Origin: Amycolatopsis methanolica 239
GTDB lineage: Bacteria > Actinomycetota > Actinomycetes > Mycobacteriales > Pseudonocardiaceae
Direction: 5' to 3'
NCBI RefSeq assembly: GCF_000739085.1
Contig: NZ_CP009110.1
Span: 4,340,001-4,404,000 of the forward strand
Length of the DNA: 64,000 bases
How positions within the stretch are numbered: position 1 is the stretch's first letter; every line of letters starts with the position of its first letter. A program made the translations under genes and the position numbers. Below, one piece after another: positions 10,487 to 63,001 of this stretch. The notes below the pieces were generated by a model that was not told the DNA's origin, searched no databases, and saw nothing but the letters and a program-made list of their open reading frames with translations.

Positions 10487-11449
10487 CTACAGGTCCAGCA
10501 CGAGCCGCGGCCCGCACGAGCGCGACACGCAGATCATCATCGTGTCGTTCGCCGCGCGCTCCTCGTCGGTGAGCAGCGAGTCGCGGTGGTCCGGCACCCC
10601 GTCGAGCACCGGCGTCTCGCACGTCCCGCAGGTGCCCTCCTGGCACGACGACAGCACGCTCACCCCGGCTTCCTCGACCGCGGCCAGGATCGACTTGTCG
10701 GGGGGCACGGTCACGGTCCGGCCGGACGCGGCGAGCTCCACCTCGAACGTCGTCCGCTCCCCCGCGTCCGCGCCTGCCTTGGGCGAGAACCGTTCCACGT
10801 GCAGCGAGCCCGGCGGCCACACGGCGCAGCGCTGCTCGACCGCCGCCAGCAACGGCTCCGGCCCGCAGCAGTACACCGCCACGCCGTCGCGCGGTGCGCC
10901 CAGCAACTCGCCCAGGTCCAGCAGCCCGGTCTCGTCCTGCGGCCGGATATCGACGCGGTCGCCGTAGCGCGCCACCAGCTCCTCGCGGAACGCCATCGAC
11001 GCCCGCGACCGCCCGCCGTACACCAGCCGCCAGTCGGCGCCGGACGCCTCGGCCCGCACGATCATCGGCACGATGGGCGTGATCCCGATCCCGCCCGCGA
11101 CGAACAGGTACCGCGGCGAGTCCACGAGCCGGAAGTGGTTGCGCGGCCCGCGGACCCGCACGGTGTCCCCTGTGGACAGACGGTCGTGCACCCAGGCCGA
11201 TCCGCCGCGCCCGTCCGGCTCGCGCAGCACCGCGACCTGCAGCACGCCGCGGTCCGCGGGATCCCCGCACAACGAGTACTGCCGCACCATCCCCTCGCCG
11301 AGCACGAGGTCCAGGTGCGCCCCCGGCTCCCACTCCGGCAGCGGGTCGCCCGCGGGGTGCCGCAGGGTCAGCCGCACCACGCCCGCGGCGAGTTCTTCCT
11401 TGCGCTCCAGGAGAACGTCGAGTTCCACTTCGGTCAGCACCGCCGTCAT
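10487..11449 (-). CDS. vanB: Vanillate O-demethylase reductase-type protein (PDR family)
   Basis: The 320-residue product carries the three modules of phthalate-dioxygenase-type reductases. They are an FMN-binding domain (RQYSLCG at about 55-61), an NAD-binding domain (GGIGITP at about 118-124, CCGPEPLL at about 193) and a C-terminal plant-type ferredoxin. Its [2Fe-2S] cysteines are in CQEGTCGTC (about 269, 274, 277) and near 305. It feeds electrons from NADH to the Rieske oxygenase two genes upstream. Its start overlaps the preceding 72-aa gene by 4 bp (ATGA). The substrate assignment rests on the partner oxygenase. Confidence 0.82.
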   Translation of the reverse strand: MTAVLTEVELDVLLERKEELAAGVVRLTLRHPAGDPLPEWEPGAHLDLVLGEGMVRQYSLCGDPADRGVLQVAVLREPDGRGGSAWVHDRLSTGDTVRVRGPRNHFRLVDSPRYLFVAGGIGITPIVPMIVRAEASGADWRLVYGGRSRASMAFREELVARYGDRVDIRPQDETGLLDLGELLGAPRDGVAVYCCGPEPLLAAVEQRCAVWPPGSLHVERFSPKAGADAGERTTFEVELAASGRTVTVPPDKSILAAVEEAGVSVLSSCQEGTCGTCETPVLDGVPDHRDSLLTDEERAANDTMMICVSRSCGPRLVLDL

Positions 11450-11664
11450 CGCGCGCTCCCCGCTCCGGCGAGCACCGGGTCACCGGCGGGCGCCGGGTCG
11501 TCGTGGCCGTCGGGATGGGCCAGCAGCCACTCCCACAGCTCGACCGGATCCTCCGACTCGTGCTCAGCGCCGCAGTGGCAGACGCCGACGAGGACGTCGG
11601 CGCCCAGTTTCCAGTGGATGCGGTACACGGTGTCGCCGTGCAGCATCGCGGTCCGTTCGGTCAT
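11446..11664 (-). CDS. Small conserved-looking protein between vanA and vanB, 72 aa
   Basis: ATG 11664 overlaps the vanA stop, and the stop overlaps the vanB start, so translation is probably coupled on both sides. The protein reads MTERTAMLHGDTVYRIHWKL, then GADVLVGVCHCGAEHESEDP, with a C-terminal acidic, Pro/Ala tail. The CHCG motif with nearby His and Glu could bind a metal or contact the oxygenase, but I know no function for it. Its tight place in the operon argues for a role with the oxygenase-reductase pair. Confidence 0.75.
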   Translation of the reverse strand: MTERTAMLHGDTVYRIHWKLGADVLVGVCHCGAEHESEDPVELWEWLLAHPDGHDDPAPAGDPVLAGAGSAR

Positions 11665-12707
11665 CGCGTGGCGGCCTTCTCCGGTTCGCCGGCCATCTTC
11701 TTCAGGATGCGCCGCGCTGCCAGGCCGCCGGTGTCGATGTTGACCGACAGCTCCTGGTAGCCCTGCGGCTCGGCCTGGATGACCCGCTCCAGGATGTCGA
11801 GCGCCTCCACGTCCTGCAGCACCACGGTGCGGTTGCTCTGCGCGAGGAAGTCGGACACCTCCTGGTCGCCGAGCGCGAAGTCCCGTGCCACGGCCCAGAA
11901 GTCGTGGGTCGAGTGCTCGGTCTCGGGGGTGATCGCGTAGACGACCTCGACGTGGAACCCGTCCGGATCGGTGCCGTCGGCGTTGGGCAGCACGCCGACC
12001 GGCGCGATGCGGCTGTGCAGCAGGTACAGGCACGGCGGGTGGTACTCGATGTCCTGCCAGCGCGTGATGCGGCCCTGGATGCCGGTCGACTTCGCGTAGA
12101 ACGGCGGGCAGGCGGCGTCGTCCATGTGGCGGCTGACGTAGATGATCCGCCGGTCCTCGTCGACCTCGGTGGTGATCGGGGTGTTGGCGACCTCCGGCGT
12201 GCCGATGTAGCCGCCGTGCAGGTAGGTCTCGTGGGACAGGTCCATCAGGTTGTCCACGAGCAGGTCGTAGCGTGCGGCCAGCGGTTCCATGCCGCACACG
12301 GTGGTGTAGGCGGGGTCGGCGAGCCACGGCGCGCGCGGGATGAGCGTGGTGTCGGCGCGGGCGGGGTCGCCGATCCACACCCACACGAACGAGTCCTGCT
12401 CGACGACCGGGTAGGACGGCACCCGCGCGGTACGCGGGATCCGCGACTGGCCGGGCACGAACACGCAGCTGCCGGAGGGTTCGTAGGTGAAGCCGTGGTA
12501 GCCGCAGACGATGCGGTCACCGTCCAGGCGGCTTTCCGACAGCGGGTAGCGGCGGTGCACGCAGCGGTCGGCCAGCGCGACGACTTCCCCGGCTTCGGTA
12601 CGGTAGAAGACGATGGGCTCGCCCAGGATCGTCCTCGCCAGCAGGTCCCGTCCGACCTCGCTCCCGTAGGCGGCGACGTACCACTGGTCGCGCACGAACG
12701 CAGTCAT
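11661..12707 (-). CDS. vanA: Vanillate O-demethylase oxygenase-type Rieske protein
   Basis: The start is ATG 12707, eight bases after GAAGGAG; an upstream in-frame start at 12740 is less likely. The 348-aa product has the Rieske [2Fe-2S] ligands C49-x-H51 and C68-x-x-H71. The catalytic-domain motif NLMDLSHETYLH supplies the mononuclear iron ligands H159 and H164. This motif and the WYVAAY start are typical of vanillate O-demethylase oxygenases, which convert vanillate to protocatechuate and formaldehyde. Related oxygenases act on other methoxybenzoates or on dicamba, so the exact substrate is inferred. It is the first gene of the operon with the 72-aa protein, the reductase and the IclR gene. 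Confidence 0.82.
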   Translation of the reverse strand: MTAFVRDQWYVAAYGSEVGRDLLARTILGEPIVFYRTEAGEVVALADRCVHRRYPLSESRLDGDRIVCGYHGFTYEPSGSCVFVPGQSRIPRTARVPSYPVVEQDSFVWVWIGDPARADTTLIPRAPWLADPAYTTVCGMEPLAARYDLLVDNLMDLSHETYLHGGYIGTPEVANTPITTEVDEDRRIIYVSRHMDDAACPPFYAKSTGIQGRITRWQDIEYHPPCLYLLHSRIAPVGVLPNADGTDPDGFHVEVVYAITPETEHSTHDFWAVARDFALGDQEVSDFLAQSNRTVVLQDVEALDILERVIQAEPQGYQELSVNIDTGGLAARRILKKMAGEPEKAATR

Positions 12708-53749: not shown

Positions 53750-54026
53750 ATGAGCACGGCCGAAACGACCCGGACCGAGACCGCGAAATTCGGCGTCGCC
53801 ACGATGATGGCGATGGTCGTCGGCTCAATGGTCGGCGCGGGCGTGTTCTCCCTGCCGCACCGGTTCGCCGCCGAGACGGGCGTGAGCGGCGCGCTCGTGG
53901 CGTGGCTGATCGCCGGCGCCGGGATGCTGACGCTGGCCTTCGTCTTCCAGAACCTGGCGGTCCGCAAACCCGGGCTGGACGCCGGGGTCTACGCCTACGC
54001 CAAGGCCGGGTTCGGCGAGTACCTGA
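53750..54026 (+). pseudogene. Amino-acid antiporter (APC family), 3'-truncated
   Basis: ATG 53750 with GGGAGGCGAG upstream begins a typical basic-amino-acid antiporter of the ArcD type (FGVATMMAMVVGSMVGAGVF, first helix with G-S-M-V-G-A-G-V-F). After 92 residues (AKAGFGEYL) the similarity stops abruptly at about 54026. The frame then reads the antisense of another gene remnant. About 370 residues and ten helices are missing, so no carrier can form. Confidence 0.78.
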
Positions 54027-54324
54027 CCCAGCGCGCGGCCTTCTCGAGCGAGCCGCGCCTGGCGACCGCGCGCCGCAGGGCGTCGAGGAAGTCCGCGTCG
54101 AGCTTGCCCACCGCCGGGGTGTCGTCCCACACCGAGACCGGCGCGCCCTCCGGGACGACGCCGTCGGCCTCGCCCAGGGCGGACCGCGAAGCCGGCGGAG
54201 CGGCGGCCACGAACAGCCGCCGCACACCGGACGCGGCGATCACCACCCCGGCGATCGCGAGGCCGACGAGCACGATCCGGCGGACGCGGCGGGCGGGCGC
54301 GGACAGTGGCAGGCTGTGGTTCAT
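54026..54324 (-). pseudogene. M15 D-Ala-D-Ala carboxypeptidase-like gene, truncated and internally deleted
   Basis: ATG 54324 starts a membrane-anchored protein (VRRIVLVGLAIAGVVIAASG) followed by VSVWDDTPAVGKLDADFLDA, the lead-in of VanY-type M15 peptidases. LRRA is then joined directly to VARRGSLEKAARWV, which in family members lies about 30 residues later, so an internal part is lost. At about 54026 the gene is cut by the same junction that ends the APC remnant. The zinc-binding SxHxxGxAxD motif is absent. Confidence 0.65.
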
Positions 54325-54390
54325 ACCTCCACTGAAGGCGGGAGGCTGTTGCCACGGCGTCTGCGCTTTCCGATACGCCCGCGATATGTC

Positions 54391-54858
54391 CTACGGGTAG
54401 TAGCGGGTCAGGGATTCCGCCACGCAGGCCGGTTTCGCCGAGCCCTCGATCTCGAAGGTGAAGTTCCGCGTCACCTGCACCCCGCCGCGGCCGACCTCCT
54501 CGACCGCGGCGATCTCGGCGTGCAGCCGCACCCGGCTGCCGACCGGGACGGGCGCCGGGAAGCGGACCTTGTTGACGCCGTAGTTCAGCGCCATGCCGAC
54601 GCCGGTGACCTGGAGCAGCTCGGCGACCATCGGGATACCCCAGCTCAGCGTCATGTAGCCGTGGGCGATCGTGCGGCCGAACGGGCCGTCGGCCGCGCGG
54701 ACGGGGTCGGTGTGGATCCACTGGTGGTCCCCGGACACCTCGGCGTAGGCGTCGATCAGCTCCTGCGTCACCTCCCGCCACGACGAGCGGCCCAGGTCGC
54801 GTCCCGCGAGCGCCAGGATCTCCGGGATCCCGTTAGCCACCACCGGCATCGAAGTCAC
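54391..54858 (-). CDS. MaoC-family (hot-dog) enoyl-CoA hydratase
   Basis: The 155-aa product (ATG 54858; ATG 54849 is equally possible) has the hydratase-2 motif DAYAEVSGDHQWIHTDPVRA, with catalytic Asp and His, and the hot-dog helix IAHGYMTLSW. It hydrates 2-enoyl-CoAs. It starts 6 bp after the MHS transporter stop, so the two genes form an operon. Through the shared promoter element this operon is linked to the CoA-transferase operon, which lacks its own hydratase. Confidence 0.85.
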   Translation of the reverse strand: MTSMPVVANGIPEILALAGRDLGRSSWREVTQELIDAYAEVSGDHQWIHTDPVRAADGPFGRTIAHGYMTLSWGIPMVAELLQVTGVGMALNYGVNKVRFPAPVPVGSRVRLHAEIAAVEEVGRGGVQVTRNFTFEIEGSAKPACVAESLTRYYP

Positions 54859-54864
54859 TCCCCC

Positions 54865-56175
54865 TCAGGCCGCGACGGCCCGCACGCCGGACTCCTCGCC
54901 CGCGCGCTCGTCGTAGTTTGGCTTGCGCAGCAACGCGAGCATGCAGCCCAGCGTCAGCACCACCTGGAACACCGCGTACACGATCACCGCGACGATCGAT
55001 CCGGTCTGGTTCAGCAGGAACTGGCCCACGATCGGCGTGGTGCCGCCGAGCAGGGTGCCGCACAGCTGGTAGCACAGCGAGATGCCGGTATAGCGCACGT
55101 TCGCGGGGAAGCGGCTGGCGAGCATCCCGGCCAGCGCCGCGTAGTACAGGCAGTGCGGCACGGTGGCGACCGCGGTGCCGATCATCGCGAGCGGGTAATT
55201 CTCGGTGCCGATGAACAGGAACATCAGCGGCATCAACAGGATCTCCGGCACCAGCATCACGATCACCGCGCGGGACCAGCTGCGCATCTTCGTCGCGATC
55301 ACCGCGCCCCACGGCTGCACCAGGATCTGGGTGATGTTGGCGACCAGGATGATCGTCAGGAACGAGCTCTTGTCGAAGCTGAGGTCCGAAGTCGCCCAGG
55401 ACAACGCGAACGTCGACTTGAAGTAGGTGGCCGACAGGCCGATGGTGCAGGCGCCGATGCCAAGGACGATCAGCAGCGGCTGCGTGCGGAGCACCTCGGT
55501 GAACGGCAGCTTGGCGACCTCCTTCTTCTCGATGAGGTGCGCCATGGCCGGCGACTCGGCGACCCGCAGCCGGATGAACAGGCCGACGATCACCAGCAGC
55601 GCGGAGAACAGGAACGGCAGCCGCCAGCCCCACGAGGTGAACGCGTCGTCGGGCAGCTGGCTGATCGCCAGGAAGCAGACGGTGCTCAGCGTGTTGCCGA
55701 CGGGCGAGCCCTGCTGGGCGAACGCGCCGTAGAGGATCGACTTGCCCTTGGGGGCGTGCTCGGAGGCGATGAGGACGGAGCCGCCCCACTCCCCACCGAG
55801 GCCGATGCCCTGCACCATGCGGATCGCGATGAGGAGCAACGGCGCGGCGACGCCGATCTGCGCGTAGGAGGGCAGGACGCCGATCAATGTGGTCGAGATG
55901 CCCATCATCAGCAGCGTGATGACCAGCGTCTTCTTGCGGCCGAGGCGGTCGCCGTAGTGGCCGAAGATGACGCCGCCCAGCGGCCGCGCGAGGAAGCCGA
56001 CCCAGAACGTCGCGAAGGCCACCAGCGTGCCGAGCGCCCCGTCCAGCTCGGGGAAGAAGACCTCGTCGAAGACCAGCGCCGACGCGGTGCCGTAGATGTA
56101 GAAGTCGAACCATTCGATGGTCGAGCCGATGAACGACCCGATGCCCGCTCGTCTGGCCGCCGTGGCCGTGCTCAT
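54865..56175 (-). CDS. MFS transporter, metabolite:H+ symporter (MHS) family
   Basis: The 436-residue product has 12 predicted helices and the MHS signatures GSTIEWFDFYIYGTASALVF at the N-terminus, GRPLGG-like ARPLGGVIFGHYGDRLGRKK in loop 2-3 and RMVQGIGLGGEWGG in helix 5. MHS carriers import organic acids such as alpha-ketoglutarate, shikimate, citrate or aromatic acids. ATG 56175 follows AAGGGAGAG. Its upstream region carries the two-part element shared with the CoA-transferase operon. Confidence 0.88.
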   Translation of the reverse strand: MSTATAARRAGIGSFIGSTIEWFDFYIYGTASALVFDEVFFPELDGALGTLVAFATFWVGFLARPLGGVIFGHYGDRLGRKKTLVITLLMMGISTTLIGVLPSYAQIGVAAPLLLIAIRMVQGIGLGGEWGGSVLIASEHAPKGKSILYGAFAQQGSPVGNTLSTVCFLAISQLPDDAFTSWGWRLPFLFSALLVIVGLFIRLRVAESPAMAHLIEKKEVAKLPFTEVLRTQPLLIVLGIGACTIGLSATYFKSTFALSWATSDLSFDKSSFLTIILVANITQILVQPWGAVIATKMRSWSRAVIVMLVPEILLMPLMFLFIGTENYPLAMIGTAVATVPHCLYYAALAGMLASRFPANVRYTGISLCYQLCGTLLGGTTPIVGQFLLNQTGSIVAVIVYAVFQVVLTLGCMLALLRKPNYDERAGEESGVRAVAA

Positions 56176-56213: not shown

Positions 56214-56254
56214 CACCGTGCCAAACGGGACCTAGAAGAGTCCAATACCGAATC
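56214..56254 (-). promoter_or_regulatory. Shared two-part element, copy 1 (MHS transporter promoter)
   Basis: Read on the minus strand: GATTCGGTATTGGAC (56254-56240), then 16 bases, then TGGCACGGTG (56223-56214). The 15-mer ends 65 bp before the transporter start. The same two blocks, 15 bases apart, lie 64 bp before the CoA-transferase start. A site for the LysR regulator encoded between them, or a shared promoter, is likely. Confidence 0.75.
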
Positions 56255-56280
56255 GCGCGGCCGGTAAGACGGTGGTCGTC

Positions 56281-56940
56281 TCAATCGCGCAGGCGAATGA
56301 CGGTGCGCTCGCCGGGTGCGTCCTGCTGGGCCCAGGCCGCCTCGACCTGGTCGAGCGGGAACGGATGCGGGCGCACAGCCATGCCGCCCGCCGCGATCGC
56401 GGCCACGAGCTCGGTGAACTCCCGCCGCATGACCTGCATGTCCACGGCGCCGAAGCCGCTACCGAGGATCCGGAACGCGTTGGAGCGCAGAAGGTGCCCG
56501 GAGAGGGTGATCGCCTCTCCGCCCATGCCGCCGATCTGCACCCAGTCGAGCAGGCGGGTGTGCTGGGGCCGCGCTCCGAGGACGACACGCATGGCGAGTT
56601 CGGAGGGCTGCCCCCACACGTAGTCCAGGACCAGGTCGACCTCGGCGGCAGCCTCGGCGAACGCGGCCGCGGTCGCGTCCTGGTCGGGGACGAGCTGGGC
56701 AACGGCGTCCGCGCCCTGGTCCAGGAGTTCGTCGAGGCGGGCGCGGTTGCGTCCGGCGGCGATCACCCGCCCCGCGCCGAGGTGCTTGGCGACCTTGACA
56801 GCCATCGAGCCGGCGTTGCCGGTCGCGCCGTGCACCAGAACCGACTGCCCGGCCTGGAACGGCACGCGGGTGCACAGCGCAGTCCATTCCGCGAGACCGT
56901 GTGGCTTCCCCTGCTCGGCCGGCGCCGAGTCGAGGAGCAC
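56281..56940 (-). pseudogene. Zinc-type alcohol dehydrogenase/quinone reductase, 5'-truncated
   Basis: The 219 codons encode only the nucleotide-binding half and the C-terminus of an MDR protein. It runs from QAGQSVLVHGATGNAGSMAV through DLVLDYVWGQ to WAQQDAPGERTVIRLRD. The N-terminal GroES-like catalytic domain (about 130 residues) is missing. The frame opens with unrelated codons next to the LysR stop. It is probably a remnant after deletion; a shortened active protein is unlikely. Confidence 0.65.
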
Positions 56941-56948
56941 TCAATTCG

Positions 56949-57851
56949 TCAGGGCCTCTGACCTGGCGTCGGCAGCGCCTGTTCCGCGATCGCCAGCACT
57001 GTCCGCAACGCCGCCGACGGGTTGTCCGGCCGCCAGGCCAGCGCGGCCTGCAACCGCACCGGCTCCCCCGCCAGCGGCCGGTACGCCAGCCCCGTCTGCT
57101 GGATGTGCTGACACGACGACACCGTCAACGTCACCCCGACGCCGGCCGCCACCAGCGCGAGGATCGTGTACGAATCCGGCGCCTCCTGCACCACCCGCGG
57201 GTTGAACCCGGCCGACACGCACACCCGCACCGTCGCGTCCCGCACGCTGGACCCGGCGTTGGCCGGGAAGCTGACGAACGCCTCCTCCGCCAGCGCCTCG
57301 ACCGGCACCTCGTCCAGCCGCGCCAAAGGATGGTCCGATGGCAGCGCGCAGATCATCTCCTCCTCGTCGATCACCCGCGCCTCGACGCCGGGCTGGGTGA
57401 TCGGCAGCCGCACGAACCCCAGGTCCAGCGAGCCGTCGGCGACACGCGCGAGTGCCACGTTCGCGTACGTCTGCCCGCGCATCACCAGCTCCAGCCCGGG
57501 GTGCGCGGCCCGCACGGCGCGGGTCAGCAGCGGCAGGCTCTCGTGGCTGGACGCGCCCGCGAACCCCACCGTCACGCGCCCGTACTCGCCGCGGCCCGCC
57601 GCGCGCGCCGCCTTCGTGGCGATGTCCAGGTCCTCCATCACCCGCCGGACCGGCCCGAGGAAGGACTCCCCCGCGCTGGTCAGCCGCACCGAGCGGGTGT
57701 TGCGCTCGAACAGCTGGACCCCCAGTTCCTTCTCCAGCTGCCGGATCTGCTGCGACAGCGGCGGCTGCGCCATCTGCAGCCGCTTGGCGGCGCGCCCGAA
57801 GTGCAGCTCCTCGGCCACGGCCAGGAAGGACGTGAGGTAACGCAGCTCCAT
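56949..57851 (-). CDS. LysR-family transcriptional regulator
   Basis: The 300-aa product begins MELRYLTSFLAVAEELHFGR, with the LysR helix-turn-helix at about 1-62 (QPPLSQQIRQLEKELGVQLF) and the effector domain at about 90-290. Its start lies 30 bp from the shared element upstream of the divergent CoA-transferase operon, the usual LysR arrangement. The second copy of the element lies upstream of the MHS transporter on its other side, so it may control both. The effector is unknown, probably the acid being degraded. Confidence 0.9.
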   Translation of the reverse strand: MELRYLTSFLAVAEELHFGRAAKRLQMAQPPLSQQIRQLEKELGVQLFERNTRSVRLTSAGESFLGPVRRVMEDLDIATKAARAAGRGEYGRVTVGFAGASSHESLPLLTRAVRAAHPGLELVMRGQTYANVALARVADGSLDLGFVRLPITQPGVEARVIDEEEMICALPSDHPLARLDEVPVEALAEEAFVSFPANAGSSVRDATVRVCVSAGFNPRVVQEAPDSYTILALVAAGVGVTLTVSSCQHIQQTGLAYRPLAGEPVRLQAALAWRPDNPSAALRTVLAIAEQALPTPGQRP

Positions 57852-57880
57852 TATTACCAGCTCCGTCTTGATCTAACTCT

Positions 57881-57920
57881 GATTCGGTATTGGACACTAA
57901 TCAATCTTGGTGGCACGGTG
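57881..57920 (+). promoter_or_regulatory. Shared two-part element, copy 2 (CoA-transferase promoter)
   Basis: GATTCGGTATTGGAC at 57881-57895, then 15 bases, then TGGCACGGTG at 57911-57920. The 15-mer ends 64 bp before ATG 57959. Flanking GATT and AATC (57881-57884, 57899-57902) also form a small inverted repeat. It is identical in both blocks to copy 1 upstream of the MHS transporter. Confidence 0.75.
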
Positions 57921-57958
57921 AAGACCGCCCCATCCACGAGCAGCACAGGAGCGCGACG

Positions 57959-58888
57959 ATGCCCCGCCCGGGTCCGGACAAGACGATGAGCCTGCGCGAC
58001 GCGGTCGCGGCTTACGTGCACGACGGGGACACCGTCTCGCTGGAGGGGTTCACGCACCTCATCCCCACCGCGGCCGGGCACGAGATCATCCGCCAGGGCC
58101 GCCGCGACCTCACCGTCGTCCGGATGACCGCGGACATCGTCGTCGACCAGATGCTCGCCGGCGGGTGCGTGCGCAAGCTGGTGTCCTCGTTCGTCGGCAA
58201 CTCCTCCGCCGGGTCGCTGGGCGAGCTGCGCCGCCGGATCGAGCACGCCGACCCGGAGCCGCTGGAGTTCGAGGAGTACAGCCACTACGGCCTGATCTGC
58301 CGCTACCTCGCCGGGGCGCAGCGCCTGCCGTTCTACCCACTGCGCTCCTACGCGGGCTCCGACCTGCCTGCCGTCAACCCGGCCATCCGCAAGGTCGCCT
58401 CCCCCTACGGCGACGAGCACATCTACGTCGTCCCGCCGGTCAACCCGGACGTCACGATCATCCACGCCCAGCGCGCCGACCGGGCGGGCAACACCCAGAT
58501 CTGGGGCCTGACCGGCGTCCAGGCGGAAGCGGTGTTCGCCGCGGACAAGGCGATCGTCGTGGTCGAGGAGATCGTGGCCGACGAGGTGGTCCGCTCCGAC
58601 CCGAACCGCACGGTCGTGCCCGCGCACGCCGTCGACGCGGTGGTCGAGGTCCCGCGCGGGGCGCACCCGTCGTTCGCGCAGGGCTACTACGACCGGGACA
58701 ACGCCTTCTACCGCGCGTGGTCGGGCATCAGCAGGGACAAGCAGAAACTGGCCGCGTGGATGGCGGAGTGGGTACACGGCACGGCCGACCACACCGAGTA
58801 CGTCGCCAAGCTGGGCGAGCAGTTCTGGGCCGGGCTCGCGGTCGGCGAGGCGCTGAGCGAGCCGGTGAACTACGGGCGGAGGCTCTGA
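57959..58888 (+). CDS. CoA-transferase subunit A (glutaconate/3-oxoadipate type)
   Basis: ATG 57959 is chosen over an upstream frame start at 57890, which would include the regulatory element; CAGGAG precedes it. The 309-aa product is a family I CoA-transferase alpha chain of the GctA/CatI/IpdA group (SLEGFTHLIPTAAGHEIIRQ, LVSSFVGNSSAGSLGE). It works with the subunit B encoded 1 bp later. The acid activated is not shown by sequence. The following genes suggest a beta-oxidised acid. Confidence 0.85.
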   Translation: MPRPGPDKTMSLRDAVAAYVHDGDTVSLEGFTHLIPTAAGHEIIRQGRRDLTVVRMTADIVVDQMLAGGCVRKLVSSFVGNSSAGSLGELRRRIEHADPEPLEFEEYSHYGLICRYLAGAQRLPFYPLRSYAGSDLPAVNPAIRKVASPYGDEHIYVVPPVNPDVTIIHAQRADRAGNTQIWGLTGVQAEAVFAADKAIVVVEEIVADEVVRSDPNRTVVPAHAVDAVVEVPRGAHPSFAQGYYDRDNAFYRAWSGISRDKQKLAAWMAEWVHGTADHTEYVAKLGEQFWAGLAVGEALSEPVNYGRRL

Positions 58889-58889
58889 C

Positions 58890-59654
58890 ATGACCACTGT
58901 GACAACAGCAAGCGAAGTCCTGTCCGTCGTCGCCTCCCGCGAGCTGGCGGGCAAGCGCACGGTGTTCGCCGGGATCGGCCTGCCCACGCTGGCCGCGTCG
59001 CTGGCCCACCTGACTGTCGCGCCGGACCTGGAGATCGTCTACGAGTCGGGCGTGTGCGGGGCGCACCCGTCGCACCTGCCGGAGACGATCGCCGACGCAG
59101 TCCTGATCACCGGCGCCGAGGCGGTGCTGTCGATGCCCGCGTTGTTCGGCTACGTGCTGCAGGGCGGGCACATCGACGTCGGGTTCCTCGGCGCCGCGCA
59201 GATCGACCGCTGGGGCAACCTGAACTCCTCGGTGATCGGCGACTGGCATTCCCCGAAGGTGCGGCTGCCCGGTTCCGGCGGCGCGATGGAGGTCATGGCG
59301 AACTCGCGCGAGGTGTTCGTGGTGATGCGCCGCCACGACCCGCGGTCCTTTGTGGACGAGCTGGACTTCTGCACCTCGCCCGGCCCCGACCGCGCCCTCA
59401 CCGACGGTGTGCGGCCGGCCGGGCTCGGCGTCACCAGGGTGATCACCGAACTCGGCATCCTCGCGCGGAGCGGCCCCGGCGACGAGCTGAAGCTCGTCGC
59501 GCTGCACCCGGGCGTCACCGTGGACCAGGCTCGCGAGTGCACCGGCTGGCCCCTGGAGGTCGGCGGCGACCTGACGGTGATCGAACCGCCGAGCGAGGCC
59601 GAACTACGGTTGCTGCGCGAAGATGTCGACCCGGAGCGGGTGTATCTGCGATGA
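58890..59654 (+). CDS. CoA-transferase subunit B
   Basis: The 254-aa product is the beta chain (GctB/CatJ/IpdB group), with the catalytic-Glu context IVYESGVCGA (about 50-59) and VGFLGAAQIDRWGNLNSSVI. It starts one base after subunit A ends. In this group IpdAB-type members have become hydrolases, so a non-transferase activity cannot be excluded. Confidence 0.85.
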   Translation: MTTVTTASEVLSVVASRELAGKRTVFAGIGLPTLAASLAHLTVAPDLEIVYESGVCGAHPSHLPETIADAVLITGAEAVLSMPALFGYVLQGGHIDVGFLGAAQIDRWGNLNSSVIGDWHSPKVRLPGSGGAMEVMANSREVFVVMRRHDPRSFVDELDFCTSPGPDRALTDGVRPAGLGVTRVITELGILARSGPGDELKLVALHPGVTVDQARECTGWPLEVGGDLTVIEPPSEAELRLLREDVDPERVYLR

Positions 59655-59665
59655 AGGAGAGGACC

Positions 59666-61153
59666 GTGCGCATCAGGATCGTCGGGACCGGGGTGATGGG
59701 CCGCGGGATCGCCCAGTGGGCCGCGACCACCGGGCACACCGTGGAGCTGGCCGACGCCAGGCCGGAGTCGGTCGGCGAGGCCGTGGAGTTCATCCGCGGC
59801 ATGCTCGACCGGGCGGTGGCGAAGGGCCGCAGCACCGCCGAGGAGGCCGCCGCGATCGGCGCGCGCCTGGTGCCGCTGGATTCCCCCGCCCAGCCGGGCG
59901 AGGCGGACCTGGTGATCGAGGCGATCCGCGAGGACCTGGACACCAAGGCCGCGTTGTTCACCGAACTGGAGAAGGCGCTGCCGGCCACGACGGTGTTCGC
60001 CACGAACACCTCGTCGCTGCCGGTCACGCAGATCGCGGCGCGCCTGTCCGACCCGTCCCGCCTGGTCGGACTGCACTTCTTCAACCCGGCGCCGCTGATG
60101 AAGATCGTCGAGGTGATCCCCGGCGCCCGGACTCGGCCCGACGTGGTGGACACGGTGTCCGCGCTGGTCCGGGAGACCGGGCACAGCGCGGTCGTCGTCT
60201 CCGACACGCCGGGCTTCCTGATCAACCACGCCGGCCGCGGGCTCGTCACCGAGGCGCTCGCGTTGCTGGAGCGCCAGGCCGCCGAGCCCGCCGAGCTGGA
60301 CCGGATCGCGCGTGACGTGCTGGGCCTGAAGATGGGCCCGTTCGAGCTGATGGACCTCACCGGGCTGGACGTCACCGCGACGGTGATCGAGTCGATCTGG
60401 GCCGGGTTCCGCTACTCCGACCGCCTGCGCGCGTCCTTCCTGACGCCGAACCGGGTCGCCGCGGGCCTGCACGGCCGCAAGACGAAGCAGGGCTGGTTCG
60501 ACTACGCCGAGGGCGCGGAAAAGCCCGCCGAGAAGCCCATCACCGGGGACGCGGACCGTCCGGTATGGACGGACGACGACGAGCTGCGCGCCGCGCTGAC
60601 CGAATCCGGCGCGAAGGTCGCCGACACGCTCACCGAGGACGTGGTCGCGCTCGTCACCACGTGGGGCACCACGGTCGCGACCGCGATCGCCGCGCAGGGC
60701 CTGCCGCCGGAGCGGACCTTCGGCGTCGACCCGCTGTCGATCCGGACCGCGCGCCGGGTGCTGGCGATCACCCCGGCCGCCGACCCGGCCGCGGCCCGCG
60801 ACGCGCGAGCGGTGCTGGCCCGCGGCGACAAGGCGGTGTCGGTGGTGCGGGACGTCGAAGGCGGTGTGGCGCAGCGGCTGGTGTCGTCGATCGTCTCGGT
60901 GGCCGCCTCGATCGCCGAGCAGGGCATCGCCGCGCCCGCCGACATCGACCTGGGCGTGCGGCTCGGGCTCGGCTACCCGCGCGGCCCGCTGGCCTGGGGC
61001 GACGAGGTCGGCCCGGCCCGGCTGCTCACGCTGCAGCGCGCGCTGCACGAGGCCACCGGCGACCCGCGCTACCGCCCGACGCGGTGGCTGGCCGAACGCG
61101 CGCAGCTCGGCCTGCCGCTGACCGCCGCGGGCACCGCGCCCGAAGACGTCTGA
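59666..61153 (+). CDS. 3-hydroxyacyl-CoA dehydrogenase
   Basis: GTG 59666 follows AAGGAGAGG by six bases; ATG 59651, which overlaps the previous stop, is also in frame. The 495-aa product has the NAD motif GTGVMG (7-12), the HCDH catalytic context FATNTSSLPVTQIA and LHFFNPAPLMKIVEVI, and two C-terminal helical HCDH domains (about 180-275 and 385-480). This is the long form seen in 3-hydroxybutyryl- or 3-hydroxyadipyl-CoA dehydrogenases. It oxidises a 3-hydroxyacyl-CoA to the 3-oxoacyl-CoA in the operon's pathway. Confidence 0.9.
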   Translation: MRIRIVGTGVMGRGIAQWAATTGHTVELADARPESVGEAVEFIRGMLDRAVAKGRSTAEEAAAIGARLVPLDSPAQPGEADLVIEAIREDLDTKAALFTELEKALPATTVFATNTSSLPVTQIAARLSDPSRLVGLHFFNPAPLMKIVEVIPGARTRPDVVDTVSALVRETGHSAVVVSDTPGFLINHAGRGLVTEALALLERQAAEPAELDRIARDVLGLKMGPFELMDLTGLDVTATVIESIWAGFRYSDRLRASFLTPNRVAAGLHGRKTKQGWFDYAEGAEKPAEKPITGDADRPVWTDDDELRAALTESGAKVADTLTEDVVALVTTWGTTVATAIAAQGLPPERTFGVDPLSIRTARRVLAITPAADPAAARDARAVLARGDKAVSVVRDVEGGVAQRLVSSIVSVAASIAEQGIAAPADIDLGVRLGLGYPRGPLAWGDEVGPARLLTLQRALHEATGDPRYRPTRWLAERAQLGLPLTAAGTAPEDV

Positions 61154-61167
61154 AGAGGAGAAAGCCA

Positions 61168-62328
61168 ATGCTGGCACGGGATTTCGGTCTCACCGAGACC
61201 CAGCGCGACTTCCGCCGGATGGCGGCGGAGTTCGTGGACGCCGAGATCGCGCCCAACGCCCGGGAGTGGGACCGCGCCGAGCACGTCGACCAGTCCGTGG
61301 TGCGGCGGCTCGGCGAGCTGGGGTTCCTCGGCCTGACTCTGGACGAGCGGTACGGCGGGGTGGACGCCGACATGCTGTCCTACGTCCTGGTCACCGAGGA
61401 GCTGGGCCGCGGCGACTCGGCGGTGCGCGGGATCGTGTCGGTGTCGCTCGGCCTGGTGTCGAAGACGATCGCCGCGCACGGCACCGACGAGCAGAAGCAG
61501 GAGTGGCTGCCGCGGCTGATCAGCGGTGAGGCGCTGGGCTGCTTCGGCCTCACCGAACCGGGCACCGGCTCCGACGCCGGGTCGCTGAGCACCCGCGCCA
61601 AGCGCGACGGCGGCGACTGGGTGATCAACGGCAGCAAGATGTTCATCACCAACGGCACGTGGGCGAAGGTCGCGCTGACCTTCGCGCGCACCAGCGACCG
61701 CGGCATCACCGCGTTCCTGGTGCCCACCGACTCCCCCGGCTTCACGGCGACGGAGATCAAGGGCAAGCTGGGCCTGCGTGGCCAGGCGACCGCCGAGCTG
61801 ACCTACGACAACGTGCGCGTGCCCGATTCGGCGCGGCTCGGAGAGGTGGACAAGGGCCTCGGCATCGCGCTCGGCACGCTGTCCCGCGGCCGGATCTCGG
61901 TGGCCGCGGGCGCGGTCGGCGTGGCGCAGGCGGCCCTGGACGCGGCCACCCGCTACGCCACCGAGCGGGAGCAGTTCGGCAAGCCGATCGCCTCGTTCCA
62001 GCTGGTCCAGGAACTGCTCGCGGACGCCGCGGTGGACGTGCAGGCCTCGCGGCTGCTCACCCACCAGGTCGCCCGCATGGCCGACGCCGGGATGAAGCCG
62101 AAGGAGTACGCCACGGACGCCTCGGCCGCGAAGTACCACGCGAGCGAGACCGCGGTGCGCGTGGCGAACAACTGCCTGCAGGTGTTCGGCGGGTACGGGT
62201 TCATCGACGAGTACCCGGTCGGCAAGTACGTCCGCGACGCCCGCGTGCTCACCCTCTACGAAGGCACCAGCCAGGTGCAGAAGCTGATCATCGGGCGGGA
62301 CCTGACCGGCGTCAACGCGATGACGTGA
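61168..62328 (+). CDS. Acyl-CoA dehydrogenase
   Basis: The 386-aa product starts at ATG 61168 after AAGAGGAG. It has the FAD-binding CFGLTEPGTGSDAG (about 126-139), FITNGTWAKV, and the catalytic Glu in TLYEGTSQVQKLIIGR (about 364-379), the position of short/medium-chain enzymes. It should introduce the 2,3 double bond in the CoA ester made by the transferase. The MaoC hydratase and hydroxyacyl-CoA dehydrogenase would follow. No thiolase gene is in the window. Confidence 0.92.
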   Translation: MLARDFGLTETQRDFRRMAAEFVDAEIAPNAREWDRAEHVDQSVVRRLGELGFLGLTLDERYGGVDADMLSYVLVTEELGRGDSAVRGIVSVSLGLVSKTIAAHGTDEQKQEWLPRLISGEALGCFGLTEPGTGSDAGSLSTRAKRDGGDWVINGSKMFITNGTWAKVALTFARTSDRGITAFLVPTDSPGFTATEIKGKLGLRGQATAELTYDNVRVPDSARLGEVDKGLGIALGTLSRGRISVAAGAVGVAQAALDAATRYATEREQFGKPIASFQLVQELLADAAVDVQASRLLTHQVARMADAGMKPKEYATDASAAKYHASETAVRVANNCLQVFGGYGFIDEYPVGKYVRDARVLTLYEGTSQVQKLIIGRDLTGVNAMT

Positions 62329-62929
62329 TGCCCAGCCGCGCCAGCTGCTGGTCGAAGGGGACGAACTCGTCCTCCTCGGCCACGGCAGGCGCGGCAGGCC
62401 TGCCGCTCACCGCGGCGGCCAGCTCACCGGCGGCACGCTCGATGCGCGCGGTCAGGTCGCCATCCGGCCCGTCCGAAGCGCCCCAGTCCCTGGACGCGGC
62501 GAACACGGCGGTCGGCATGACGTCGGCGCGCAGGTAGGCGAACAGCGGCCGCAGCGCGAACTCCAGCGCGAGCGAGTGCCGCGCGGTGCCCGCGGTCGCG
62601 GCGATGAGGACCGGCTTGCCCTGCAGCGAGCCGGCCTCGATCACGTCGAAGAACGACTTGAACAGGCCGCTGTAGGAGGCGTTGAAGATCGGTGTCACCA
62701 CGATCAGCCCGTCGGCGCGGGTCACGGTCTCGACGGCGTCCCCCAGCTGCGGGCTCGGGAAACCGGTGACCAGGTTGTTCGCGATGTCGGTGGCGAGGTC
62801 GCGCAGCTCGACGACCTCGATCGCGGCGCCGGTCTCCCGTGCGGCCGCCTGCGCCAGACGGTCACCCAGCAGCCGCGTGGAGGAGGGGCTGCTCAGGCCG
62901 GCCGAGACGACCACGAGTGTGCGGGACAT
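62312..62929 (-). CDS. NADPH-dependent FMN reductase
   Basis: The 205-aa product (ATG 62929, MSRTLVVVSAGLSSPSSTRL) is a flavodoxin-fold FMN reductase of the CE1759/MsuE type, with TPIFNASYSGLFKSFFDVIE at the flavin site. Such proteins supply reduced FMN to monooxygenases or reduce quinones and metals. It converges with the acyl-CoA dehydrogenase gene with a 17-bp overlap. Confidence 0.87.
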   Translation of the reverse strand: MSRTLVVVSAGLSSPSSTRLLGDRLAQAAARETGAAIEVVELRDLATDIANNLVTGFPSPQLGDAVETVTRADGLIVVTPIFNASYSGLFKSFFDVIEAGSLQGKPVLIAATAGTARHSLALEFALRPLFAYLRADVMPTAVFAASRDWGASDGPDGDLTARIERAAGELAAAVSGRPAAPAVAEEDEFVPFDQQLARLGITSSR

Positions 62930-63001
62930 GGACCTCACCCTGCTCAGGTAGTTGTGCGTTCAACTAGTGAGCACAACGGCCTGGGCAGGGCGGGTATTCC
63001 A

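Follow-up and report, generated by a model that had tools for sequence, protein, structure and literature searches.

Two copies of a short two-block sequence stand before two operons on either side of a LysR-type regulator gene in Amycolatopsis methanolica 239, and the locus raises the question of what this element is and which protein reads it. The window, by which we mean the whole stretch of 64,000 nucleotides analysed here (contig NZ_CP009110.1, positions 4,340,001 to 4,404,000), contained two exact copies of GATTCGGTATTGGAC-N15/16-TGGCACGGTG, at 57881-57920 on the plus strand with a gap of 15 bases between the blocks and at 56214-56254 on the minus strand with a gap of 16. An earlier note on this DNA had described identical blocks with unequal gaps at nearly equal distances from two start codons. 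Both copies were exact. The ATG of the MHS transporter lies 65 bases from the end of the first block (56240 to 56175), and that of CoA-transferase subunit A 64 bases (57895 to 57959). The annotation agreed with the note on gene content and on the two operons flanking the LysR gene; the note had missed an alcohol-dehydrogenase gene lacking its 5' part, which lies between LysR and the MHS promoter. The genes are as follows.

54391..54858, minus strand: MaoC-type hydratase (Pfam MaoC_dehydratas; best solved match Rv0130)
54865..56175, minus strand: MHS-type MFS transporter (Pfam MFS_1 and Sugar_tr above cut-off)
56281..56940, minus strand: 5'-truncated zinc-type alcohol-dehydrogenase gene, situated between LysR and the MHS promoter
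56949..57851, minus strand: LysR-type regulator of 300 aa, which would activate the regulon (Pfam HTH_1 and LysR_substrate)
57959..58888, plus strand: CoA-transferase subunit A, glutaconate CoA-transferase type (closest solved match glutaconate CoA-transferase)
58890..59654, plus strand: CoA-transferase subunit B (solved-structure match glutaconate CoA-transferase)
59654..61153, plus strand: 3-hydroxyacyl-CoA dehydrogenase (NCBIfam NF006124 above cut-off)
61168..62328, plus strand: acyl-CoA dehydrogenase (from the annotation)

The transporter scored 370 bits against TIGR00883, under the cut-off of 443, and subunit A is of the type that we take to be named IpdA. A second CoA-transferase A, 56% identical, was present in the genome at 5,559,301-5,560,092 (locus L037), and none of the three genome or genus patterns used in this work matched there. 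The 5'-less alcohol-dehydrogenase gene is not thought to be part of the mechanism. A full-length frame occupied the equivalent place in one other locus (L042, about 10866-11829), the gene was matched in only three of the 14 genus loci examined, and we read it as a probable insertion that was later truncated in the A. methanolica genome. Beyond the operons lay a permease remnant (53750-54400, plus strand), in which the opening 93 residues resemble the beginning of an amino-acid permease and the rest is unrelated sequence (77 of the 427 positions of PF13520 covered), and a CE1759-type FMN reductase (62312-62938, minus strand), whose 3' end overlaps that of the acyl-CoA dehydrogenase gene and which was matched in nine of the 14 genus loci.

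The motif was not scattered through the genome. The exact two-block pattern occurred only at the two window sites in the 7.24 Mb genome, and none of 100 dinucleotide shuffles of the window matched it. When the first block was relaxed, the pair still gave two matches in the 7,237,391-base genome, both in the window, and none for the reversed-pattern controls. The first block alone, with at most two mismatches, was a weak signal, as its eight genome matches compare with three for the reversed controls; two of the eight were the window copies and three shared identical flanks, which we recognised as presumably 16S rRNA.

The motif was kept upstream of the orthologous operons in related genomes, namely in two Amycolatopsis clades, Saccharomonospora, Streptomyces and other genera. 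Neither of the two outcomes that the note had named as speaking against its reading, random scatter and a lack of conservation before orthologous operons, was thus observed. A search of 390 family genomes for the strict form GGTATTGGAC-N12..19-GGCACGGT gave 22 sites in 15 of them, all at LysR loci and with no control matches. Seven genomes of the genus had two sites each, and eight genomes of another genus bin (g11) had one each; at the eight g11 loci the MHS promoter retained the first block (block B), and the second (block C) read TGGCATGGT, TGGCATCGT or TGGCAGGGT. Loci were also selected by protein, comprising 50 family LysR orthologs with at least 68% identity and seven class orthologs with 66-82% (57 loci). 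The element stood on the CoA-transferase side in 51 of these and behind LysR in 39. The six without a CoA-transferase-side element were G264, G373 and G372, where block B was present and block C changed; G010, where a contig end falls inside the element; and G363 and G360, where LysR has no adjoining CoA-transferase or hydroxyacyl-CoA dehydrogenase. The three loci with a changed block C count against reading the element as a LysR promoter, and so does G350, where a changed element (GTATTAGAC, gap 17) was kept with none of the queried operon genes adjoining. A further 15 loci (13 from Streptomyces and two from Saccharomonospora, the latter with LysR matched only in part) brought the total to 72; they were found by the motif scan and thus are not independent evidence of conservation. 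That scan of contigs had given 26 stretches, nine of which were left out as duplicates of contigs already represented (L083, L086, L089, L091, L092, L097, L098, L102 and L103), and matches on Psychroflexus and Akkermansiaceae contigs were set aside as chance, none of the nine queried proteins being matched there.

The second element, behind LysR, followed the operon that it precedes. It was present at all 35 loci where MHS follows (all protein-selected), at 15 of the 16 where thiolase follows (four protein-selected, 12 motif-selected) and at one of the 21 remaining loci, some of which are cut by contig ends. The exception among the thiolase loci was the protein-selected G478, where thiolase adjoins LysR and no element was recognisable; the one remaining locus with an element, G679, had neither MHS nor thiolase found behind it. 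Both loci speak against the promoter reading. Both genes follow LysR in G373 and G372. In Streptomyces the thiolase comes first behind LysR, in one case with MHS and MaoC after it. Gene order changes across these genomes, and the element remains with whichever operon comes next.

Alignment of 117 elements from the 72 loci (66 from the CoA-transferase side and 51 from the downstream side, behind LysR) revealed a common unit of three parts: an upstream dyad (block A), block B with TTGGAC, and block C, which reads TGN-nAnnnT. Many of the aligned rows are close relatives, so the element counts overstate the independent evidence; 41 and 38 sequences remained after the removal of rows at least 90% identical. 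Aligned on the end of TTGGAC, the consensus of block A was approximately ATTGAKAC-N7-GTMTYRAT, in columns -46 to -39 and -31 to -24. The parts of the two window promoters were assigned as follows.

57850..57872, plus strand: block A of the CoA-transferase promoter, candidate LysR recognition site (RBS), ATTATTAC-N7-GTCTTGAT, 5/8 pairs, centre 57861
57881..57895, plus strand: block B of the CoA-transferase promoter, TTGGAC at 57890-57895 being the proposed -35
57889..57905, plus strand: proposed activation site (ABS), an ATTG-N9-CAAT dyad overlapping the -35
57911..57920, plus strand: block C of the CoA-transferase promoter, proposed extended -10 TGG-CACGGT at 57911-57919, predicted start about 57926
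56263..56285, minus strand: block A of the MHS promoter, candidate RBS, ATTGAGAC-N7-GTCTTACC, 5/8 pairs, centre 56274
56240..56254, minus strand: block B of the MHS promoter, TTGGAC at 56240-56245 being the proposed -35
56214..56223, minus strand: block C of the MHS promoter, proposed extended -10 TGG-CACGGT at 56215-56223, predicted start about 56208

With the start placed seven bases past the -10 hexamer, both window promoters would have 33-base leaders and -35 spacers of 18 and 19, and the centre of block A would lie at -65 (CoA-transferase) and -66 (MHS) relative to the predicted, unmapped start. CGTCTT was equidistant from block B in both promoters, and its combination with block B occurred at exactly two sites genome-wide.

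The dyad scan (8-base arms, 7-base spacer, mean number of complementary pairs per centre over the orthologous elements) placed the centre of dyad A 35 columns upstream of the TTGGAC end in both promoter types. On the downstream side this centre had the highest mean of all (4.57 of 8 pairs, against 2.13 averaged over centres); on the CoA-transferase side its 4.45 was second to 4.67 at centre +1 (2.10 over centres). The latter corresponds to the second dyad, ATTG-N9-CAAT, whose right arm CAAT was present in 62 of the 66 elements. The downstream-side promoters were at background there (2.27 of 8 pairs at centre +1), and block B could thus act as a dimer site only on the CoA-transferase side. Another dyad, with its centre at -13, lay between A and B, its right arm in block B. 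It ranked third on the CoA-transferase side (4.05/8); as a common part it was dropped, since the downstream side was at background (2.16). Both window copies of block A are imperfect, with 5/8 pairs each and without the textbook T-N11-A, which we weighed against the reading as a LysR promoter. They have T-N11-C or G-N11-C in its place; T-N11-A itself was found in block A of the downstream side of G359 (GATAC-N7-GTATC), and it is contained in the ATTG-N9-CAAT of block B.

Blocks B and C were consistent with a promoter. TATTGGAC was exact in 61 of the 66 CoA-transferase-side elements and in all 51 downstream-side elements, the search having permitted one change there. Block C kept the form TGN-nAnnnT across both sets, partly by construction of the search. 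Its commonest version was TGGCACGGT, in 32 of 66 elements on the CoA-transferase side and in eight of 51 on the downstream side, where it tied with TGCGAAGGT (eight). No more than one change in block C and no more than two overall were permitted in the search, so that the constancy of both blocks is partly built in, including the A at -11 and the T at -7. The features of a sigma-70 promoter comprised TTGGAC, a spacer of 18-19 at gaps of 15-16, which is within the 16-19 bp of such promoters, and nAnnnT after TGN, with the T at -12 absent. The gap was 15 or 16 in 116 of the 117 elements, and the blocks would be kept while the gap shifts because B and C are the putative -35 and -10. A -10 within the B-C gap (TAATCA/TAGGTC) was also considered and dropped, no TAnnnT being kept there across orthologs. 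At the g11 loci the CoA-transferase GTG, taken as the start from the conserved D-K-T residues that follow it, lay six nucleotides after the -10 hexamer in seven of eight loci and seven in the eighth and in L106. The transcript would thus be leaderless or nearly so, which fits a -10 and not a downstream operator. At these loci (L056-L063 and L106) translation of CoA-transferase A seems to begin with a GTG that coincides with or adjoins the predicted transcription start, as against the 33-base leader predicted in the window.

The window locus contains no thiolase. The Streptomyces gene order suggested a third target, and a thiolase was therefore sought elsewhere in the genome. The Streptomyces protein (PF00108 and PF02803) has an 83% identical ortholog here at 3,871,832-3,873,040 on the minus strand, and its promoter, at 3.87 Mb and 523 kb from the window sites, has all three parts: ACTGAGAC-GCTCGTC-GTCTCAGT (8/8 pairs), ATATTGGAC, a 15-base gap and TGCGATCGT, with dyad A at the same offset from the -35 as in the window promoters. 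We searched RTATTGGAC-N15..16-TGNNANNNT, a pattern from which block A is absent, in 19 genomes of the genus. It gave 36 matches and none for the reversed controls, with three sites in the A. methanolica genome; 22 of the 36 were at the LysR locus, nine before thiolase orthologs, four at a paralogous LysR-MHS locus (three read directly and the G015 site via L201) and one elsewhere, on contig 48 of G010, with none of the queried genes adjoining. A scan of the genus with CANNGT as the -10 had given 29 matches, 22 at the LysR locus and seven elsewhere, with one reversed-control match, and had missed the thiolase promoters. The thiolase element was thus present in nine of the 19 genomes, including G008 and G018, where no MHS adjoins LysR. 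Block A had 6-8 of 8 pairs in all nine, a count that covers element-bearing orthologs only; the dyad was weaker (3-4/8) at three of the four paralog sites and at the G010 site. The missing thiolase of the beta-oxidation set was in this way found through relatives and confirmed by the motif. The small regulon with a motif of its own, as proposed in the earlier note, is thus supported by the comparative data, and its outline was too narrow: the upstream dyad is a third part of the element and the thiolase promoter a third member of the regulon.

We consider it very probable that a three-part, LysR-activated promoter, of which B and C form the downstream two thirds, stands before three operons of one acid pathway. 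The element, its conservation, its geometry and its association with LysR and the targets can be read directly from the sequences; from association and geometry we infer that LysR binds it. The transcription starts are predicted, and activation, which we favour over repression, and the pathway are likewise putative. The LysR protein had both expected domains above cut-offs (PF00126, 82 bits, the N-terminal HTH; PF03466, 141 bits, the C-terminal substrate-binding domain). Its gene is divergent from its putative target, with starts at 57851 and 57959, and block A at 57850-57872 overlaps the lysR start codon, which suggests that lysR may repress itself through block A. LTTRs bind 50-60 bp, with the RBS near -65 and the ABS at -35, according to two papers (PMC8407307, PMC5603801). 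A LysR tetramer would be anchored on block A, centred at about -65, and an acid or acyl-CoA inducer would lead the second dimer to engage the -35 region at block B, the contact being TATTGGAC plus, at the CoA-transferase promoter, CAAT. LysR would thereby help RNA polymerase at a promoter whose -35 is poor, whose spacer measures 18-19 bp and whose extended -10 lacks the usual T at its first position. Operon 1 would comprise CoA-transferase A/B, hydroxyacyl-CoA dehydrogenase and acyl-CoA dehydrogenase; operon 2, the transporter and the MaoC hydratase; and operon 3, the thiolase at 3.87 Mb. Together they could take up one carboxylic acid, activate it by CoA transfer and pass it through one round of beta-oxidation, with desaturation, hydration, oxidation and thiolysis.

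Four other explanations were weighed. The best of them, which we still consider improbable, is that block A serves mainly to terminate the preceding gene at the MHS and thiolase promoters. The stop codon TGA of that gene lies inside block A at both promoters, and a partial terminator role is possible for this reason; yet the dyad has the same position at the divergent CoA-transferase promoter, at the lysR start, where no terminator is needed, and no T-run follows it in the sequences shown. It is quite unlikely that some other DNA-binding protein reads the element and that LysR has another purpose. The element does also precede the unlinked thiolase, which has a TetR-family gene (PF00440; 5143-5832 in L220) directly upstream, but 22 of the 36 genus sites adjoin LysR, the Streptomyces thiolase itself adjoins LysR with the element present, and the LysR genes of G363 and G360, which lack the operon, also lack the element (G350 keeps its changed one). 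Slightly less credit still is due to the view that an alternative sigma factor recognises B and C as its -35 and -10, with the LysR gene a bystander: a pair of conserved blocks whose gap shifts by a single base does resemble sigma-factor hexamers, and block C is poor as a vegetative -10, but the RTATTGGAC pattern has only three sites in the genome, the LysR locus accounts for 22 of its 36 sites in the genus, a conserved dyad precedes the blocks at constant spacing, and some paralogous LysR-MHS loci have a related element in the same layout. That the copies are alike through recent duplication of a promoter segment rather than selection on both is highly implausible, since the 25 bases identical at two places 1.7 kb apart are accompanied by differing spacers and flanks, and letters specific to each promoter are kept across genera (CAAT after the CoA-transferase block B in 62/66, other letters after the MHS block B).

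The LysR-activated promoter thus remains the preferred reading. As a predicted three-operon LTTR regulon it is of an ordinary kind; its anatomy is exceptionally clear, and its constant -35/activation block is unusual. TATTGGAC was exact in 112 of the 117 elements and more constant than dyad A across genera, a figure partly built by the search. Some related LysR proteins (50-60% identical) go with GTCTTGGAC in the same layout. The related paralog elements differ from block B by no more than one change (GTCTTGGAC, GTATTGGAC and others), and L141-L143 likewise, so the layout of the element may be shared by a wider LysR subfamily. In a raw count of the paralogous loci L182-L201 (50-60% identity), a related element was present in 12 of 20, in 11 of them behind LysR. 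More tentatively, we put forward as a possibility, rather than an expectation, that members of this LysR subfamily recognise the -35 region itself in a highly sequence-specific way, the regulon being defined by an activation site fused to the -35. This would provide a sequence-specific activation site, in contrast to a 2017 paper, in which a conserved sequence motif for activation sites was described as not known (PMC5603801). Pro30 of the recognition helix is reported to contact the T-N11-A thymine in BenM and CbnR (PMC12609908), and the window LysR has Pro30 (AQPPLS). Covariation between a Pro30 to Ser change and base three of block B (GTATT to GTCTT) was attractive in three paralogs and failed in a larger set, the counter-cases being L183, with Pro30 and ATCTTGGAC, and L199-L201, with Ser30 and GTATTGGAC. 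The constant block B lets one ask what an LTTR contacts at the -35, and the well-sampled alignment of actinobacterial LTTR promoters makes RBS, ABS, -35 and -10 distinguishable by sequence. An observation made by eye has thus become a testable regulon of three promoters and one regulator with base-precise geometry.

Among the portions of the open-access literature available to us, no earlier description of this LysR/CoA-transferase/MHS system was found, and known systems offer partial parallels. The solved structure best matched by the window LysR was 7w06, followed by BenM, 1ixc (which we take to be CbnR), a peroxide-inducible activator and CatM, with RipR (7xro) lower; 7w06 and 7xro are presumably itaconate regulators. 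The best NCBIfam model was AlsR, with a score of 266, below the cut-off of 430, and the window targets differ from the acetoin genes in the name of that model. At the BenM/CatM promoters PbenA and PcatB, site 1 (ATAC-N7-GTAT with T-N11-A) lies upstream, weaker sites reach into the promoter, the -35-like sequence is TTGAAC, and activation occurs by a shift of the second dimer, as described in PMC6628147. The simplest reading of the window promoters, with a tetramer at block A and a second dimer at the -35, is modelled on these. The upstream dyad and the -35-like sequence are alike, as the proposed contact at the -35 would be; the regulators are related by structure match, and the CoA-transferase side alone has a third, in-between dyad (centre -13, 4.05/8). 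Unlike in BenM/CatM, the upstream dyad in the window has other bases in place of the T-A pair, block A varies more than block B, and the targets are genes of the beta-oxidation type.

The operons of the dca type for dicarboxylate beta-oxidation encode a transporter, a two-subunit CoA-transferase, an acyl-CoA dehydrogenase, a hydratase, a hydroxyacyl-CoA dehydrogenase and a thiolase. Unlike in these, the CoA-transferase of the window is nearest to glutaconate CoA-transferase, the hydratase is of the MaoC type, and the genes are split over three transcription units. The likeness is one of genes, and in this respect the proposed regulon comprises the same set, thiolase included.
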